Shown here: one piece after another, positions 4,020 to 51,951 of the stretch | Layout of the letters: each line of letters starts with the position of its first letter | Numbering within the stretch: the stretch's first letter is position 1 | Assembly (NCBI GenBank): GCA_021852275.1 | Contig: JAJZNX010000138.1 | Coordinates: 1-51,951, forward strand | Reading direction: 5' to 3' | From: Planctomycetota bacterium | GTDB lineage: Bacteria; Planctomycetota; Phycisphaerae; WQYP01 | Length of the DNA stretch: 51,951 nucleotides | Translations under genes and position numbers: made by a program | The notes under the pieces: model-generated | The model's input: the letters and a program-made list of their open reading frames with translations, nothing else | What the model was told of the DNA's origin: nothing | Database searches by the model: none

Positions 4020-5780
4020 ATGCAGCAAAATATCCGCCGATGGTCCCTATCCCTGTGCGTCATCATTATCGGCACCGTGTTTACTGATCAGACGGTTCAT
4101 GCCCAGGCCTATCGGCGTATCGCACCCCAAAAGCCGGGGCCAGTTGCGCCAGGAAAAATTTTAACGCCGGCAACCCAGCAGCCTTCCGCCACCACCCAGT
4201 CGAATAAAGTGATTCTGCAAAAACTCCGTGGCCTGGTGTTTATAGATAATATCAAGGCCCTGGTCCGTACCGGCTACACCGGTGCGTTATCAGCCAACGG
4301 AATTGTGATGAAAAATCTGCCGCTGCTGAATCGCCCCCGGTTTATCAGCCAATTGACCCCAAGTATCGGCAAACCATTGACACTTTCCGACATTCAAAAC
4401 CTATCCAGGCTGGTAACGCAATGGTACATCCGCCACGGTCGTCCCCTGATGCAGGTAACGGTTCCCCCGCAGAATATCAGCTCCGGCATCGTTCAGGTGG
4501 TAGTAACCGTCTACAAAGTGGGGCGGGTGAATGTGACGGGCAACAAGTGGTTTTCCAGCCAACTGCTGCGGTTTGAAAGCGGCATTCAGACAGGTAAGCC
4601 CATTACGCTAAATTCCCTGCAGTCAGATTTGAACTGGCTCAACAGCAATCCATTCCGGCGGGTCAATGCGGTGTTCAGCCCCGGAGCCCAGGCTGGCGAG
4701 ACGGATGTGAACTTGCAAACACGCGATCAATTTCCCCTGCGGGTTTATAGCGGCTATGACAACGAGGGTGTGCCAAGCCTGGGCCGCAGCGAATACAACG
4801 TCGGTTTTAATTGGGGTAACGCCTTTGGATTGGACCAGCAGTTATCCTATCAGTTTACCCGCAGTTTCAGCGGCAACTATACGGCCCATTCGGTAGATTG
4901 GACTATTCCGCTGCCCTGGCGGGACCGGGTGATGATCTTTGGGTCTTATGAGCAGGAAAAGGTGGGTCTTAACTCGGCGTTTTCGTCTCTGGGTGAAAGC
5001 GGGCAGGCCAGCATTCGGTACCTGCATCCATTGCCGGCACCGAATTGGCTTAGCCAGTCTGTGGGTGTAGGTTACGATTTTAAGACCAGCAACAACAACC
5101 TGGAATTTGGCGGCACACAGGTGAGCAATGCCCAGAACAGCTTAAATCAGATGCTGTTTATTTATAATGCCGTGGAGACTGATCGCTTTGGCAGCACCGC
5201 TCTGAACAACCAGTTGGTGGCCAGTTTTGGGGCCTTTACCGGGATGAACAATTCCAATCCACCGCCCAATGAAGCGGGTTTGGCCTATCCGGCCAATTAC
5301 CTCTACGATCAGGTGGAACTCAAACGCATCACACGGTTGCCATGGGGGCTTTCTTCGGTAACCAGATTTGCAGGCCAAATTGCGGACCATAACCTGCCGG
5401 ACAGCGAACAATTGGATGCCGGCGGGGTAGGCAGTGTACGTGGTTACAATCCGGAGACTGCGTTAGGCAGTGAAGGGGAACTTATCAGTGAAGAAATTCT
5501 TAGCCCGGCGTTTGATCCGGCAGGTTTTTTACATCCCCCGGCACAGTGGCATTCAGCGGCCCAGTTAGGGGTATTTATTGATTATGCGGATGTGTATCAG
5601 GTGCAAAGGAGTGCCAGCGCCGGTGGGCGGGCTGATTTGGCCAGTGCCGGCGTAGAGATTACCTATAATCTAAGAAACAATCTTTCCATCGATATGGATT
5701 ATGGCCAGCAACTGCGTCGCGCCCCTGGTGCTACCAACAAAGGTGGAGAGTTTGATATTGCGGTGGTGGTGGGATTTTAG
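4020..5780 (+). CDS. TpsB/ShlB-FhaC-type outer-membrane exporter
   Basis: A 586-residue Omp85-superfamily pore of two-partner secretion, expected to export the upstream repetitive protein across the outer membrane. It has an N-terminal signal peptide (about residues 1-29, cleavage near VHAQA) and a proline-rich linker. A ShlB-type POTRA region follows (about 65-165), then a second POTRA with the VGRVNVTGNKWF strand (about 170-235). The rest is a 16-strand-type beta barrel. The VRGY motif of the L6 loop is present in GGVGSVRGYNPETA, and the protein ends in phenylalanine within a terminal beta strand, the usual Bam recognition signal. AAGGA at 4008-4012 lies 7 bases before the ATG. The start is 42 bp after the substrate gene and probably cotranscribed. 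Confidence 0.9.
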   Translation: MQQNIRRWSLSLCVIIIGTVFTDQTVHAQAYRRIAPQKPGPVAPGKILTPATQQPSATTQSNKVILQKLRGLVFIDNIKALVRTGYTGALSANGIVMKNLPLLNRPRFISQLTPSIGKPLTLSDIQNLSRLVTQWYIRHGRPLMQVTVPPQNISSGIVQVVVTVYKVGRVNVTGNKWFSSQLLRFESGIQTGKPITLNSLQSDLNWLNSNPFRRVNAVFSPGAQAGETDVNLQTRDQFPLRVYSGYDNEGVPSLGRSEYNVGFNWGNAFGLDQQLSYQFTRSFSGNYTAHSVDWTIPLPWRDRVMIFGSYEQEKVGLNSAFSSLGESGQASIRYLHPLPAPNWLSQSVGVGYDFKTSNNNLEFGGTQVSNAQNSLNQMLFIYNAVETDRFGSTALNNQLVASFGAFTGMNNSNPPPNEAGLAYPANYLYDQVELKRITRLPWGLSSVTRFAGQIADHNLPDSEQLDAGGVGSVRGYNPETALGSEGELISEEILSPAFDPAGFLHPPAQWHSAAQLGVFIDYADVYQVQRSASAGGRADLASAGVEITYNLRNNLSIDMDYGQQLRRAPGATNKGGEFDIAVVVGF

Positions 5781-6313
5781 GGCGGGCTTTCTGCAACTGC
5801 AGCGGTCTTTGTTGCGCTTCGCCTCTATGGCGCTGCCGTTACCGAGATCCAAGCCGCAAGATTTGTCGCTGGTAGCCATCGCCGTGGGTTGGATCATTGC
5901 AGGGGTGGTTAAATTTAAGTATAAGGGGCCGCGCACAAATAACTTCACACTTTCCGGCTGGTTCTTTTGGCCGCTGGCTTCCAGCCCGCCTTGGCAGCCA
6001 AGATGGCCACACCCCCATCAAGTAACGTCGATCCAGCAAGACCATCCTATGCCTGCAGGATGGCCTTGCACCGAGTGCCAGAAATTATGGCCGCACCAGT
6101 TGGATAAAGCGTAACCGTTCACGGCCATACTAACACACCAACCGCTGACTGCTGTCCGCTTTTTCCCTCGCGCTTTGTCTCCTTCAACAATACGTATCTC
6201 CCGATTCCCTACTCCCGTCTGCGGGCTTTGGCTCGCGTTGTGGTGCAGGTTTCCAGCCTGCACGGCCGCCACTTCGTGAACGGTTACGTTTCAGTTACAG
6301 GATGGCAATTTTG
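5781..6313. other. Convergent intergenic region with REP-like hairpins
   Basis: A 533-bp gap between the convergent exporter and TolC genes, with no convincing gene. It holds several short hairpins: CTTGGC-A-GCCAAG at 5990-6002, CCATCCT/AGGATGG at 6042-6063, and GTGCAGG-TTTCCAG-CCTGCAC at 6243-6263. A related element, CTGGCTTCCAGCC, lies near 5974-5986. None is followed by a T-run, so these look like dispersed palindromic repeats rather than standard terminators. Confidence 0.5.
6243..6263. repeat. REP-like hairpin
   Basis: A perfect 7-bp stem (GTGCAGG / CCTGCAC) with a 7-base TTTCCAG loop. It shares the GGYTTCCAGCC core with a second copy about 270 bp upstream in the same intergenic region. 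Confidence 0.5.
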
Positions 6314-8137
6314 CTACTGTGTTGTATGCAGGTAACCATCGGGCCAACGGTGCAGCCACGCCGGACCGATGGAACGGGTGGGAATGGCTCCTGGAGCCTG
6401 AATATGGCATCGTTCCAGCAGCGAACCTTCCTGCAGATACAGGGTATCGAGTGCATCCAGATAGGCCACCACAGCCTGGGCTTGGGCGAGCTGCGCGGAA
6501 AGCAGGTTTGACTGGGCCTGGGAAACTTGCAGAGAGGTGCTTTCTCCAACACGAAATTCGCCTTCGGTGGCGGTAAGGGTTTCCTGCTGGGCGCGGGTGG
6601 TGGCCGCGGTGGCGGTGATCTGGCGTCGGTCGGTGACGGCCTGAATGTAGGCGGTGCGCACACTGAGTTCCACGCTGCGGACGGTATTGGCGAAGGCCGC
6701 TTCTTCCTGGTCCCGGCTCAGTACCGCGCTTTGATAATTGGCTGTTGGCGTACGGTTGAACAACGGATAGTTGAAAGATAGACCTCCGACCAGTTGATAA
6801 TCATCACCGTTGAGATTAGCGGCGGCGGGACCGAAGGATTCGGCGTAGCCGGTTTTACCCATGGTGATAAAAGCATTGAGAACGGGCAAAAGGCCGTTGC
6901 GAGTTTGTATGACGGCCAAATCTCCCTGTTGAATTTGCAGACGCGTCTGATTGAGAATAGGGCTTAACCGTAGAGCAAGGCTGGTATGTGCAGCCAGCGG
7001 GGCTTGTGGTCCGCCGGAAATATACGGAGGCGTGGTAAGCACAATATGATGTTTCCAAAATGGTTTGCCGGACGGCACCAGTAGACTCAGCAGGTTGAGT
7101 CGGGCGATTTTTTGTGCGCCCAAGGCGCTGACCAGTTGCTCGCGGGTGACTGCGGTTTGGGCGATGGATGCGGACAACTGCGATGGGGCAGTACGTCCGA
7201 CACGGATGAGTTCGCGGGTTTGCTGTTCCTGTTGCCGGGCGACGGATAAAGCCTGCTCAAGGATTTGCACATTTTGGCGAGCGAGCACCGCCTGCCAGTA
7301 GGCCTGTACAATGTCATCGGTAATGGTAAGAGCTTCGCCGCGCAGTTGGTAATCTGAGATTCTCTTGCCGAGTTGAGCTTCGTGGATAGTGGCCAGGTTG
7401 GCCTGTAAATTTCCGCCTTGCAATAGAGCTTGGGTAACGGTGAGAGAAAAACCGGTGTTGGTGGCCTGGCCGCCGCTGGTTTCACTGTCGCTAAGGTTGG
7501 CATTGATGCCGGCCTTGACGGAGGTTCCTGTGGGCAGGTTTTCCGACACGCCAAGATTGGCGGTGCCGGAATCGGTGGTGGTACTGCCGCCAGCCGCCCG
7601 GTTATAGCCGCCGCTGGATGTTACGTAACCACCACTGCTGGGGACGCGGTTTTTGGAGGCCTGAACGCCGGCGGAAACCGTCGGATCGAACGCTCCGCGG
7701 TCGGCAATGATCTGCTGCTGTGCTATGGCTGGGGCATAGCGTTGTACCAGCAGCGATGGATTGTTCCGCAGGCCGATCACCAGGGCATCGGCCAACGAAA
7801 GATGGTGAAGATGCGAAGTGGAGATGGTGACGGCGGGTTTAGTGCCGGCTGGCAGGGCGGATGCCAGGTGATCGGAGGCTGTGCCAGTGGCGAGATCCTG
7901 CTGGTGAGCCAGAGCCGCGGCCTGATAGTTTTCGTATCCACCGGAATCAATGCTGCTGCATGCGGATATACCGGCCACTGCACCAAGCAAGGCACAGGCA
8001 CGCAGTGTCGTAGAAATGGAATGTGCAAGGTGCACGTGTTTTTCAGGTTTGGCAAGAGATGGCGGCTGATTGCGACATGGTGCAGCAGAGCGGGTAAAAT
8101 ATGTGGAACCTTGGGACGATGTTATCGGATCATTCAT
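6314..8137 (-). CDS. TolC-family outer-membrane efflux lipoprotein
   Basis: A 607-residue outer-membrane factor forming the exit duct of the tripartite pump encoded upstream. It has the TolC/OEP pattern of two repeated long-helix domains with LADALVIGLRNNPSLLVQR at the first and an alanine/glutamine-rich coiled-coil region near the C-terminus. A hydrophobic stretch ends in a lipobox (GISAC, Cys60), suggesting a lipid anchor. That is unusually far from the N-terminus, so the true start may be later. I chose the ATG at 8137 over an upstream TTG because it overlaps the permease stop as ATGAATGA, indicating translational coupling. It is the last gene of a four-gene minus-strand operon. The substrate is not evident. 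Confidence 0.87.
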   Translation of the reverse strand: MNDPITSSQGSTYFTRSAAPCRNQPPSLAKPEKHVHLAHSISTTLRACALLGAVAGISACSSIDSGGYENYQAAALAHQQDLATGTASDHLASALPAGTKPAVTISTSHLHHLSLADALVIGLRNNPSLLVQRYAPAIAQQQIIADRGAFDPTVSAGVQASKNRVPSSGGYVTSSGGYNRAAGGSTTTDSGTANLGVSENLPTGTSVKAGINANLSDSETSGGQATNTGFSLTVTQALLQGGNLQANLATIHEAQLGKRISDYQLRGEALTITDDIVQAYWQAVLARQNVQILEQALSVARQQEQQTRELIRVGRTAPSQLSASIAQTAVTREQLVSALGAQKIARLNLLSLLVPSGKPFWKHHIVLTTPPYISGGPQAPLAAHTSLALRLSPILNQTRLQIQQGDLAVIQTRNGLLPVLNAFITMGKTGYAESFGPAAANLNGDDYQLVGGLSFNYPLFNRTPTANYQSAVLSRDQEEAAFANTVRSVELSVRTAYIQAVTDRRQITATAATTRAQQETLTATEGEFRVGESTSLQVSQAQSNLLSAQLAQAQAVVAYLDALDTLYLQEGSLLERCHIQAPGAIPTRSIGPAWLHRWPDGYLHTTQ

Positions 8138-48825: not shown

Positions 48826-48937
48826 CAAAGCTTTTGTTAAGACCAACCGAGGATGAAATCTTTATCGGCATGGTCCCGCAGCTTCAATCATGCGGTCATG
48901 ACGAAATAACGCGGCAGCGGCAGGGCTAAGGGACCGC

Positions 48938-49086
48938 GCAAAAATAAATTCGTGTTTTACGGCGCAGAAATTTTGGCCGCCAGCGAGGCGTGAGTGAGGC
49001 GCATACCCCGGCAGTGGGTCTGAAACGAGCGAACAACGAAGCTGGAGGCCAAAAGGGCCAGCCGAAAAGTGCGAAGTTATTTTTGC
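48938..49086. repeat. 149-bp imperfect inverted repeat
   Basis: The left arm 48938-48984 and right arm 49041-49086 pair over about 46 positions. Perfect blocks are GCAAAAATAA, TTCG, CGGC, TTTTGGCC and CCAGC. Three mismatches become G-U pairs in a plus-strand RNA. The 56-base loop is GC-rich. I cannot assign it to a known RNA family or an element with a transposase. The surrounding 48841-49303 has no convincing gene. Confidence 0.65.
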
Positions 49087-49359
49087 CCGGTTCCTAACCA
49101 ATGGGTAGTCGCCATCAGGTAAGGCCCTCATTCTGGGGGGAATTGCGGGGGGCACACGCTTCGGGCAGTCATAAGGAATCCCTCAGATAGGTAATCCGAG
49201 TCTGATGCATGTGGCCATCACCGTCAGAAGGATGCCTATTGCCAACGCAAACACTGCGAAAAAATTGTGCGGAAGTACGTTCGAGGTGTAAACGATATGC
49301 TGTATGTATATGATCATGCAACCATGTCATTCTGGTATCCCTGCATGTCAATTTAGCGG

Positions 49360-49365
49360 TATAAT
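49360..49365 (+). promoter_or_regulatory. Candidate -10 of the AlbA-ParA operon
   Basis: TATAAT at 49360-49365 without a clear -35, giving a leader of about 70 bases. A second possible promoter (TTGACT at 49395, GAATAT at 49418, 17-bp spacer) would start just before the ribosome binding site. Confidence 0.4.
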
Positions 49366-49441
49366 GTTTGTCTCCGTCCCACAGGCCGTATTGCTTGACT
49401 TCTGCGTGTGGGGTGCGGAATATACACGCGGAGACTTAACA

Positions 49442-50623
49442 ATGGCGGATATTTTAGAAGAACTGCTCAAGGATACTGAATCGTTTCGGGTTGAGCGGAC
49501 TACGTCACTTACGGATACCGATAAATTCTGCCGGGCGATCTGCGCCTTCGCCAATGACATGCCTGGGGCCGGGCAGCCAGGCTACCTTTTTGTGGGTGTA
49601 GACAGGGAAGGAGTTCCCACAGGCGCCAGAATCGATGAAAAGCTCCTGGAAAGTTTGGCGAGCCATCGCAACAACGGCCAAATACTTCCCGTGCCGGACA
49701 TGCACGTTTTCAAATTATCTGTGGATGGCCAGGATATTGCAGTGGTGAAGGTTCAACCATCATATATGCCGCCGGTGCGATATAAACAGACTGTCTACAT
49801 TCGCACTGGGCCGACGGAGAGCATAGCGACGGAAGAGCAGGAACGGCGTTTGGGAGAGCGTCGGGTGGATAAGGCCAAAACTTGGGACATGCGAGCTTGC
49901 TCAGAGGCTACGTTGGAGGACTTGGAACTGGGGCTTTTCAAGGTGACCTACCTTCCGGCAGCCGTGTCCAGGGAAGTGTTGGAAGAAAATGGACGGGAAA
50001 TATCCGAGCAGCTTGATTCTCTCCGCTTTTATCACAAGAAGCAAGGAGTTCCGACCAACGCGGCAGTGTTGGTGTTTGGTAAGGACCCGTTGTCTTTTTT
50101 TCCCGGGGCCTACGTGCAATATGTGCGTTATGACGGTCTTACTCAAGCGGCATCGGTAAAAAGTGAACGAAGATTTGCTGGAGATATGATCAGTGTTATG
50201 CGTGATCTGGACAGTTTGGCCAAGGAGGTTGCAAATTTCCGGCCCGTGTGTCGCCCCGATCTGACGGACGAATCAGTTGCCGACTACCCCGACCGGGCTT
50301 TGCATGAGCTGTTCATCAATGCGTTAATTCATCGCAATTATGATGGGTCTACAACGCCGGTGTCCATCAATCACTACTCCGACCGTATTGAGATACAGAA
50401 TCCAGGGTCGCTGTATGGAGACCTGAGCCGGGATCAATTTCCCGCCGGCACGGCTTACCGTAATCCCGTGCTGGCTGAGGCGGCCCGAATTCTTGGTTTC
50501 GCTAACCGTTTTGGCCGTGGTATCGCGTTGGCTCAGGAATTGCTTGACCGCAATTCGAGTCCTCCGCTAAAGTACGTGATTGGAGATAATCATCTGGCGA
50601 TGATCGTCGGGAGGCATCCATGA
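49442..50623 (+). CDS. AlbA_2 / Schlafen-type ATP-binding protein
   Basis: A 393-residue protein. The N-terminal AlbA_2 domain (about 1-125) contains ESFRVERTTSLTDTDKFCRAICAFANDMPGAGQPGYLFVGVDREG and YIRTGPTESIATEEQERRLGERR. The C-terminal part (about 275-390) is the ATPase domain often paired with it: ALHELFINALIHRNYDGSTTPVSINHYSDRIEIQNPGSLYG and RNPVLAEAARILGFANRFGRGIALAQELL. Such proteins are often annotated as transcriptional regulators, and some sit in defence loci. The ATG at 49442 has GGAG 8 bases upstream; an upstream extension to 49304 is not family-like. The stop overlaps the ParA-like start as ATGA. Codon use looks less biased than in neighbouring genes. Confidence 0.85.
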   Translation: MADILEELLKDTESFRVERTTSLTDTDKFCRAICAFANDMPGAGQPGYLFVGVDREGVPTGARIDEKLLESLASHRNNGQILPVPDMHVFKLSVDGQDIAVVKVQPSYMPPVRYKQTVYIRTGPTESIATEEQERRLGERRVDKAKTWDMRACSEATLEDLELGLFKVTYLPAAVSREVLEENGREISEQLDSLRFYHKKQGVPTNAAVLVFGKDPLSFFPGAYVQYVRYDGLTQAASVKSERRFAGDMISVMRDLDSLAKEVANFRPVCRPDLTDESVADYPDRALHELFINALIHRNYDGSTTPVSINHYSDRIEIQNPGSLYGDLSRDQFPAGTAYRNPVLAEAARILGFANRFGRGIALAQELLDRNSSPPLKYVIGDNHLAMIVGRHP

Positions 50624-51645
50624 AAACAATCGCCTTTTTCAACAACAAGGGTGGCGTGGGCAAGACGTCGATGGTTTATCACCTCTCATGGATGTTCCAC
50701 GATTTAGGGCGGCGGGTGTTGGCGGTCGACTTAGATCCGCAATCCAACCTCACCAGCATTTTTCTCGAAGATTCAGACTTAGAATCGCTCTGGCCGGAAG
50801 GAAGACATCCGGATACGATCCTTGGTGCGGTGGACCCTCTCATCGAAAGCCTTGGTGATATTCAGGCTGTCGAGCCGATTAACATCTTGTCTGGAATTTC
50901 CCTTATAGCCGGCGATCTGGGGCTAAGCGCCTTTGAGGACCGCCTGTCTGACGCGTGGGGCAAGTGCCTTGACGATAAACCCGCGATTGCCGGCGATGGT
51001 TTTCGGGTGACGACTGCGTTTCATCGGGTAATGAAGCTAGCAGCCGAGAAGTGCGGCGGGGAGATCGTGCTGATTGATGTTGGCCCCAACATAGGGGCGA
51101 TGAATCGGGCGGCATTGGTGGCTGCCGATTTTGTGGTCATTCCGCTTGGGGCCGACTTGTTCTCGCTGCAGGGCCTGCGCAACTTGGGACCTACACTGCG
51201 CGATTGGCGCAAAGGATGGCAGACTCGTTTGCACAGTTCCCGGATACCAAAGGATATATCGCTGCCATCGGGTGATATGCAACCGATCGGTTATGTACTA
51301 CTCAACCCCTCCGTGCGCGAAAATCGACCGGTAAAGTCCTATCTGAAATGGGCTAATAGAATCCCAGATACGTATGCCAGGGAAGTTCTGGCCCAGCCGG
51401 CGCAGGCCCAGTTTACTGCGGATGATCCGAATCAACTTACCATGCTCAAGCACTTCAAAAGCCTTATGCCAATGGCTCAAGATGCCCGCAAACCCATGTT
51501 TCACCTCACAGCATCGGATGGAGCCATCGGCGGACACGCCGGTGCGGTGCAGGACTGTAGGAAACAGTTTGAGGTCTTGGCAAATAAAATATTCGAGAAA
51601 ATTTACGCTACGGAACATGTAGACTCACGGGATAATTCACGGTAG
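50620..51645 (+). CDS. ParA/MinD-family ATPase
   Basis: A 341-residue deviant Walker A ATPase. The N-terminus is MKTIAFFNNKGGVGKTSMVYHLSWMF (signature lysine Lys10, P-loop lysine Lys15), then VLAVDLDPQSNLTSIFLE (Walker A'). EIVLIDVGPNIGAMNRAALVAADFVVIPLGADLFSLQGLRNL carries the Walker B-like motif, where VGP replaces the more common CPP/SPP. An insertion of about 60 residues lies between the first two motifs. No ParB gene or parS-like repeat is visible. It is translationally coupled to the AlbA_2 ATPase, so the two probably work together. Confidence 0.88.
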   Translation: MKTIAFFNNKGGVGKTSMVYHLSWMFHDLGRRVLAVDLDPQSNLTSIFLEDSDLESLWPEGRHPDTILGAVDPLIESLGDIQAVEPINILSGISLIAGDLGLSAFEDRLSDAWGKCLDDKPAIAGDGFRVTTAFHRVMKLAAEKCGGEIVLIDVGPNIGAMNRAALVAADFVVIPLGADLFSLQGLRNLGPTLRDWRKGWQTRLHSSRIPKDISLPSGDMQPIGYVLLNPSVRENRPVKSYLKWANRIPDTYAREVLAQPAQAQFTADDPNQLTMLKHFKSLMPMAQDARKPMFHLTASDGAIGGHAGAVQDCRKQFEVLANKIFEKIYATEHVDSRDNSR

Positions 51646-51951
51646 CTCCGGGGCCAGCCAGCGTTTCGTTTTTGATGATGGGTTCGCTTCCTCTTGCACC
51701 AATGGCCTGCGCCACTCGCGGTTGGGACGTCGCGATCTTAGGTCCAAGGTCAATCATGACGTTATCGTCGGATGAAACTGATGAAACCAGATTTCCAGCA
51801 TCAGCAGGGCAAAGAGGCGATGGGTATGATCCCGGTGTCGTGCAAGATGTTGATTTACAAGTTGTTCCACGCCGGCCGACGATAAATAATTGCGACAAAA
51901 CCCCGCTGAATTCCGCAGCCGGTCGAGCGATTCTAAGTCTGAATCTTCGAG
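51646..51951. other. Unassigned region at the right edge
   Basis: About 306 bp with no gene I can support. A plus-strand frame is open from about 51640 to the edge of the window, with an ATG at 51756 preceded by AAGG. It could be the start of a gene, but its translation has no recognisable pattern. A minus-strand frame at 51608-51898 is equally open and overlaps the parA end, so both may be chance. Confidence 0.35.

Follow-up and report, generated by a model that had tools for sequence, protein, structure and literature searches.

A predicted two-gene module of a Schlafen-type AlbA_2 protein and an orphan ParA-like ATPase, probably from a little-described family of bacterial self-defence systems

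What does a ParA-like ATPase do when its neighbour encodes an AlbA_2 protein instead of ParB? The question is raised by the right end of the window, the 51,951-nt stretch of Planctomycetota DNA analysed here, which is the entire contig of an 82%-complete MAG. There, on the forward strand, a gene for a 393-aa protein combining an AlbA_2 (Schlafen-type) domain with a GHKL-like HATPase_c_4 domain (49442-50623) is followed by one for a 341-aa orphan ParA/Soj-like ATPase (50620-51645). Pfam, conservation, AlphaFold and Foldseek make the first protein a predicted RNase effector, and Pfam (AAA_31), a profile match, Foldseek and AlphaFold make the second a predicted sensor or regulator of an antitoxin-like kind. 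The first ORF has an earlier in-frame ATG at 49304, and its homologues start near 49442. An earlier note on this DNA had described two overlapping genes for two ATPases, in a segment unlike its surroundings, as a possible uncharacterised defence or regulation system. Its statement that the ParA-like protein has no ParB partner agrees with the ORFs of the window, among which no ParB gene is apparent beside this one.

When we scanned GTDB with the C-terminal half of the ParA-like protein as query, we found at least 550 relatives. The best 80 of these come from Planctomycetota, Myxococcota, Cyanobacteriota, Acidobacteriota, Pseudomonadota, Chloroflexota, Actinomycetota, Poribacteria and others, and directly upstream of nearly all of these best 80 lies a gene for an AlbA_2-HATPase protein, whole or reduced to a remnant. 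The ATGA stop/start overlap reported by the earlier note, the expected arrangement for translational coupling, is confirmed at 50620-50623 on the forward strand; since it is exactly 4 nt in 59 of the 69 full-length AlbA-ParA pairs across phyla, it is not a product of chance. The AlbA and ParA distances are correlated (Mantel r 0.72), with none of 2000 permutations giving a value as high. In a survey of 298 genomes of the class, where each protein was searched separately and ParA hits with other partner types were excluded, 21 genomes have both genes, 4 have ParA without AlbA, 5 have AlbA without ParA and 268 have neither (Fisher p 9e-24), and wherever both are present (21/21) they are adjacent. 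AlbA and ParA co-evolve and form a real two-gene module; far from being rare, as the earlier note had allowed, their co-occurrence in other genomes is almost constant.

The module does not always survive whole. At four loci an intact ParA gene stands behind only the last 36-57 AlbA codons (L018:9352-9492, L023:9326-9463, L052:7438-7545 and L080:7411-7581), and the ribosome-binding site of ParA may lie in this retained 3′ piece. These loci had been found through ParA, whereas queries with both genes gave single survivors of both kinds, as in the class counts above, and the idea that AlbA is lost first because of a presumed toxicity was dropped on that ground. That either gene is at times solo or decayed speaks against a strict dependence between them. 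Natural AlbA-ParA fusions, to which ORFs of more than 600 aa at L085 and L105 might have corresponded, were ruled out, the two domains lying in different frames. At L105 a second AlbA_2-HATPase_c_4 gene (5472-6578) lies directly downstream of the AlbA-ParA pair. Frameshifts in the genome G001 and in some GTDB copies could be assembly errors and were kept out of the evidence.

At the site of the window the pair has come and gone among close relatives. Comparison by blastn with syntenic loci (L267, L268) showed that positions 48918-51752 are missing from the congeners G004 and G002. G004 has 76 bp in their place, between flanks that are 96% and 93% identical, with asparagine synthase as the far-side gene; G002 has 71 bp, with flanks 91% and 86% identical. 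In G003 a decayed copy retains AlbA residues about 120-341, with most of ParA gone. Absence from close relatives, which the earlier note had put forward as a check, is thus borne out. Elsewhere, members of the family carry the pair at differing loci and no constant neighbouring operon was found among them; with ParA hits in about 9% of the 298 class genomes searched, the pair is patchy and not universally conserved at one locus. A second, diverged pair lies on another contig of the same host (ParA 50%, AlbA 38% identical). Transfer between phyla is suggested by the tree of ParA sequences, which places the window copy with Sorangium (Myxococcota) and the other copy of the host with those of G004 and of G552, a genome from the class to which Sphaerotilus belongs.

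The segment differs from its surroundings in gene content and in its presence or absence among relatives, as the earlier note had supposed, but not in GC: the value for the pair (0.530) is within the range of 2.2-kb windows (0.544 ± 0.017), and atypical GC was discarded as a sign of transfer. The inverted repeat reported beside the pair (48929-48963 and 49061-49095, 80% complementary) is real, but occurs far beyond the pair, as part of a dispersed repeat of about 171 bp with imperfect 35-bp inverted ends. At least 40 copies of this repeat, 97-100% identical, are present in the MAG (161-171 first-look candidates), and the copy at 48927-49097 was for this reason placed outside the module. Diverged copies of this repeat (74-93%) occur in four congeners, few or partial ones in G009, G011 and G014, and a comparison with Rfam gave no match; it is MITE/REPIN-like and apparently recently active.

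The product of the first gene matches SLFN_AlbA_2 (PF04326; 55.7 bits, cutoff 25.3) and HATPase_c_4 (PF13749; 48.0 bits, cutoff 26) in Pfam. The SLFN_AlbA_2 domain spans residues 13-126 (49478-49819, forward strand), in which C34, N38 and D39 are invariant, as are E13 and E18, with the E-x4-E arrangement present in 69/69 homologues. In Schlafen13 the catalytic triad is E205/E210/D248, and alanine mutants of E205 and E210 are inactive (PMC5862951); the spacing of E13 and E18 is that of E205 and E210. The third carboxylate is less certain and, not being strictly conserved, speaks against a Schlafen RNase: an acid occurs at positions 54-56 in 63 of the 69 homologues, and D39 is invariant, both as sequence positions only. 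The AlphaFold model has a mean pLDDT of 90 and a pTM of 0.66, which makes the placement of the domains less sure. Its best Foldseek match is 3lmm (DIP2311), with weaker matches to histidine-kinase CA domains and to human SLFN14, SLFN11 and SLFN12 and the tRNase domain of SAMD9 (E about 4e-4 to 5e-3 for the SLFN and SAMD9 structures). The protein also matches the PADLOC models for a pAgo fusion and an Ago-associated SIR2, in agreement with the Schlafen-pAgo and SIR2-Schlafen links on record (PMC6299218). Taken from sequence and model, these similarities lead us to infer a Schlafen-type endoribonuclease, with tRNA or another RNA as its predicted target.

The second domain of this protein, the GHKL-like HATPase_c_4 (residues 306-386; 50357-50599, forward strand), has the invariant residues R340, N341, G358 and G360, and just N-terminal to it N293, H297, R298 and Y300 are invariant as well. 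However, the Glu of the GHKL N-box is replaced by Gln in 51 of the 69 family members, which makes ATP hydrolysis doubtful, and a role in nucleotide sensing or dimerisation appears more likely. The description of the pair as two ATPases consequently stands for the ParA-like protein and is questionable for its partner.

Proteins that combine AlbA_2 with HATPase_c_4 usually carry annotations as regulators that bind DNA or are related to RecG, and such descriptions count against an RNase effector. They also give rise to another explanation, in which AlbA_2 would be a DNA-binding regulator of transcription or the nucleoid, positioned or switched by the ParA-like ATPase without any killing; McdA and BcsQ, which appear among the Foldseek neighbours of the ParA-like model, are ParA relatives that position cargo. 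A regulator of this sort would sit poorly with a pair that is patchy, transferable and often decayed, that has no constant adjoining operon to regulate, and whose ParA family also has SIR2, HEPN and RelA/SpoT partners (see below), which are not transcription regulators. We consider this explanation to have only a slim chance of being correct.

The ParA-like protein matches AAA_31/CbiA in Pfam. Its deviant Walker A motif, KGGVGKT (50647-50667, forward strand), is 93-99% conserved per position among 87 homologues, and a VDLDPQ box is present and conserved throughout the family. The VGP that the earlier note had remarked on after Walker B proved to be a hallmark of the family: in the stretch D153-V-G-P-N157 at the end of Walker B (51076-51090, forward strand), G155 is conserved in 97%, P156 in 100% and N157 in 93% of the same homologues. 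A profile comparison matches the protein over its full length to 3pg5 (DIP2308; E 6e-68), which is also the top Foldseek match of the AlphaFold model (E 2e-16). This model has a pLDDT of 94 and a pTM of 0.92; the alignment used for structure prediction was built without phage and plasmid rows. Of the features of a ParA partition system, the fold and the deviant Walker A are thus present and ParB is absent beside the gene in the window, the conserved partner of window-type ParA being AlbA_2 in its place.

More distant relatives within this ParA family have other partners. There, the ParA gene is followed by a gene, mostly overlapping or abutting it, for SIR2_2 at eight loci (L030, a Salmonella plasmid, and L117, L118, L149, L203, L204, L206 and L207), for HEPN_RiboL-PSP at eight (L031, phage Pf1; L208, the Pf-like phage WX-TY; L115, L119, L145, L182, L193 and L196) and for RelA_SpoT at two (L146:1498-3226 and L191:801-2595); Pfam confirmed 10/10 partners scanned (4 SIR2_2, 4 HEPN_RiboL-PSP and 2 RelA_SpoT) and the rest were assigned by sequence similarity. 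In Pf1 (AY324828.1) the RiboL-PSP HEPN ORF (L031:5019-5546) overlaps the end of the ParA-like ORF317 and is missing from the deposited annotation; the arrangement in WX-TY is the same. The RelA/SpoT pair could possibly be a small alarmone synthetase-type toxin under ParA control. Some members lack a partner: ParA stands beside a repressor in the P22-like phage ST160 and in an E. coli prophage, and singly near an antirepressor in a Helicobacter prophage. The neighbours of the ParA-like gene in ST160 (L028:4515-6068) include a CI-like repressor and a DUF3024 protein, the latter a match to PDC-S43, a PADLOC candidate.

The partner types fall into clades on the ParA tree, with supports of 100/100 for SIR2, 98/93 for HEPN and 98/92 for AlbA (one solo row lying inside the last), while the RelA pair is weakly placed and long-branched. 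Rows of the family group together, save for one long-branch ArsA-like row, at a support below 95; a common ancestry of all types that excludes partition ParAs is compatible with the tree, though less than firmly supported. Several types may share a genome, as in G232, with AlbA and SIR2 pairs, and in G303 (Poribacteria), with AlbA, HEPN and RelA pairs. This bears on the idea that the pair is a remnant of partition, in which the ATPase would be the ParA of an integrated plasmid or element and AlbA_2 an unusual DNA-binding partner replacing ParB. The ParA fold and the intact Walker motifs are as such an origin would predict, but ParB is lacking, no replication, mobilisation or phage genes were seen adjoining the pair within the window, the partner type switches to enzymes without DNA-binding roles, and some genomes hold several copies; we find a partition remnant highly improbable.

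The earlier note had proposed scoring the enrichment of the pair near known defence genes. At a threshold of 1e-10, genes within 2.5 kb of the GTDB pairs matched 116 PADLOC families against 39 at 4.5 kb or more, the distal set being smaller (39,080 residues versus 49,491); within the class the count was 84 families within 6 kb against 16 in arbitrary regions, mostly of the same genomes. The comparison counts heavily overlapping models or families and not proteins, and the excess of defence-model families near the pairs over control genes is suggestive only. Named models near the pairs include DISARM, a BREX-type helicase, Hma, type IIG RM and Dpd. The PADLOC 2.0.0 catalogue (2023) holds no system matching the pair; its matches are partial ones, namely those of AlbA given above and that of the ParA P-loop to PDC-M28B. 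A further point against a defence role is that IMG/VR viral contigs gave only 4 matches.

The same observations must be weighed against a selfish toxin-antitoxin module, which would have the same biochemistry, with the ParA-like protein as antitoxin, and would be kept because its loss kills. Two overlapping genes, the occurrence of some family members on plasmids, and gain and decay at one site would all suit addiction, and a HEPN-ParA/Soj dyad has already been postulated as a toxin-antitoxin system (PMC3710099). However, single-gene remnants of either kind persist, although with an active toxin the loss of the antitoxin alone should kill. The majority of window-type pairs were found on chromosomal or MAG contigs, and many defence models are matched by neighbouring genes. 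We regard addiction as the function of the pair as rather unlikely.

The reading we prefer, and hold to be somewhat more probable than its negation, is that the pair is a mobile two-gene module of abortive-infection or toxin-antitoxin-like type, in which the ParA-like ATPase controls the predicted RNase effector, and it is probably one of a family of suicide systems for bacterial self-defence on which little has been written. The first gene would supply the effector, a Schlafen-type (AlbA_2) endoribonuclease fused to a GHKL-like regulatory domain, and the second a shared sensor or controller, a ParA/Soj-like ATPase working without ParB. As an ATP-dependent and probably DNA-associated dimer, the ParA-like protein would bind the effector and keep it inactive. 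A change in the nucleotide or DNA state of the ParA-like protein, brought about by infection or damage (phage replication, for instance, or a takeover of the DNA), would release or activate the AlbA_2 RNase, which would cut tRNA or another RNA and stop growth before the phage could spread. The control could take the form of restraint or of activation, and RNA cleavage, direct binding, the assignment of sensing to the ParA-like protein, the trigger and the protection against phage are all predictions of this scheme. A role in defence or self-poisoning is strengthened by the SIR2, HEPN and RelA/SpoT partners of the same ParA family. The suggestion of a defence or regulation module is therefore upheld as a prediction, the pair being neither rare in other genomes nor fixed at one locus.

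CBASS and STAND sensors are wired to interchangeable effectors and offer an analogue for a ParA sensor. A broader and more tentative possibility, to which we give a little less than an even chance, is that bacteria and phages have wired one family of orphan ParA proteins, as a general infection sensor or controller, to suicide effectors of at least four unrelated kinds (Schlafen RNase, SIR2, HEPN RNase and a RelA/SpoT-type nucleotidyl transferase), the pair in the window being one widespread form of it.

How far such systems were already known depends on the partner. In 2013, Anantharaman et al. predicted that a HEPN protein of the MAE_18760 family and a ParA/Soj-like ATPase form a toxin-antitoxin dyad with the ATPase as antitoxin; the part of that paper considered here notes HEPN-Schlafen fusions and contains no Schlafen-ParA pair (PMC3710099). 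The window pair resembles this dyad in its two genes, a ParA/Soj-like ATPase and a predicted RNase, and has the two-gene operon with a predicted toxin-type enzyme that marks such dyads, but the HEPN partner is absent, its place being taken by an upstream AlbA_2/Schlafen and GHKL protein, and the ATPase belongs to a separate ParA clade. The RiboL-PSP HEPN partners that other members of the ParA family have are a point of likeness to the 2013 dyad, and may correspond to its MAE_18760 family. No description of Schlafen-ParA, SIR2-ParA or RelA-ParA pairs was found in the literature outside preprints and most subscription papers. The term uncharacterised, used by the earlier note, has to be qualified, since the HEPN-ParA version had been predicted.

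Other systems show partial likeness. Schlafen RNases with a minimal histidine kinase were linked to BREX in a 2026 paper, which also refers to a preprint on bacterial Schlafens acting against phages (PMC12839542); those proteins have an added wHTH and are located in BREX or BREX-related loci, whereas in the AlbA_2 protein of the window (about 395 aa) no wHTH was detected, and its gene is closely coupled to the one for the ParA-like protein. The SIR2 and ParA-like pairs on plasmids, for example of Salmonella Infantis, Vibrio ponticus and Spirosoma, share the ParA family and the overlapping operon, but their SIR2_2 effector lies downstream of ParA and their ParA forms a separate clade. The best fold matches of both window proteins are structural-genomics structures from C. 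diphtheriae, DIP2311 (3lmm), which is longer (583 aa versus 393 aa), and DIP2308 (3pg5); the locus tags, three apart, suggest a related locus in which the two genes may be neighbours. We know of no functional characterisation of either protein. A further lead, alike by description only, is STM14_3218 of Gifsy-1, an orphan ParA-like protein without ParB in the prophage immunity region, shorter than the ParA-like protein of the window (280 aa versus 341 aa); when the three genes STM14_3218-3220 are deleted, the RNA-repair regulator RtcR is activated far less during SOS and Gifsy titres are 2- to 4-fold higher (PMC9879122).

ParA-like ATPases are normally taken as partition or positioning proteins, and orphan copies, whether found in prophages, on plasmids or on chromosomes, receive the label 'ParA family' and are then ignored. 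If the family does control toxic effectors, many genes that are now misannotated, among them genes of classical phages such as Pf1 and relatives of P22, would become a testable immune family, and the bacterial Schlafen RNases, kin of human antiviral SLFN proteins and SAMD9, would have a dedicated regulator.
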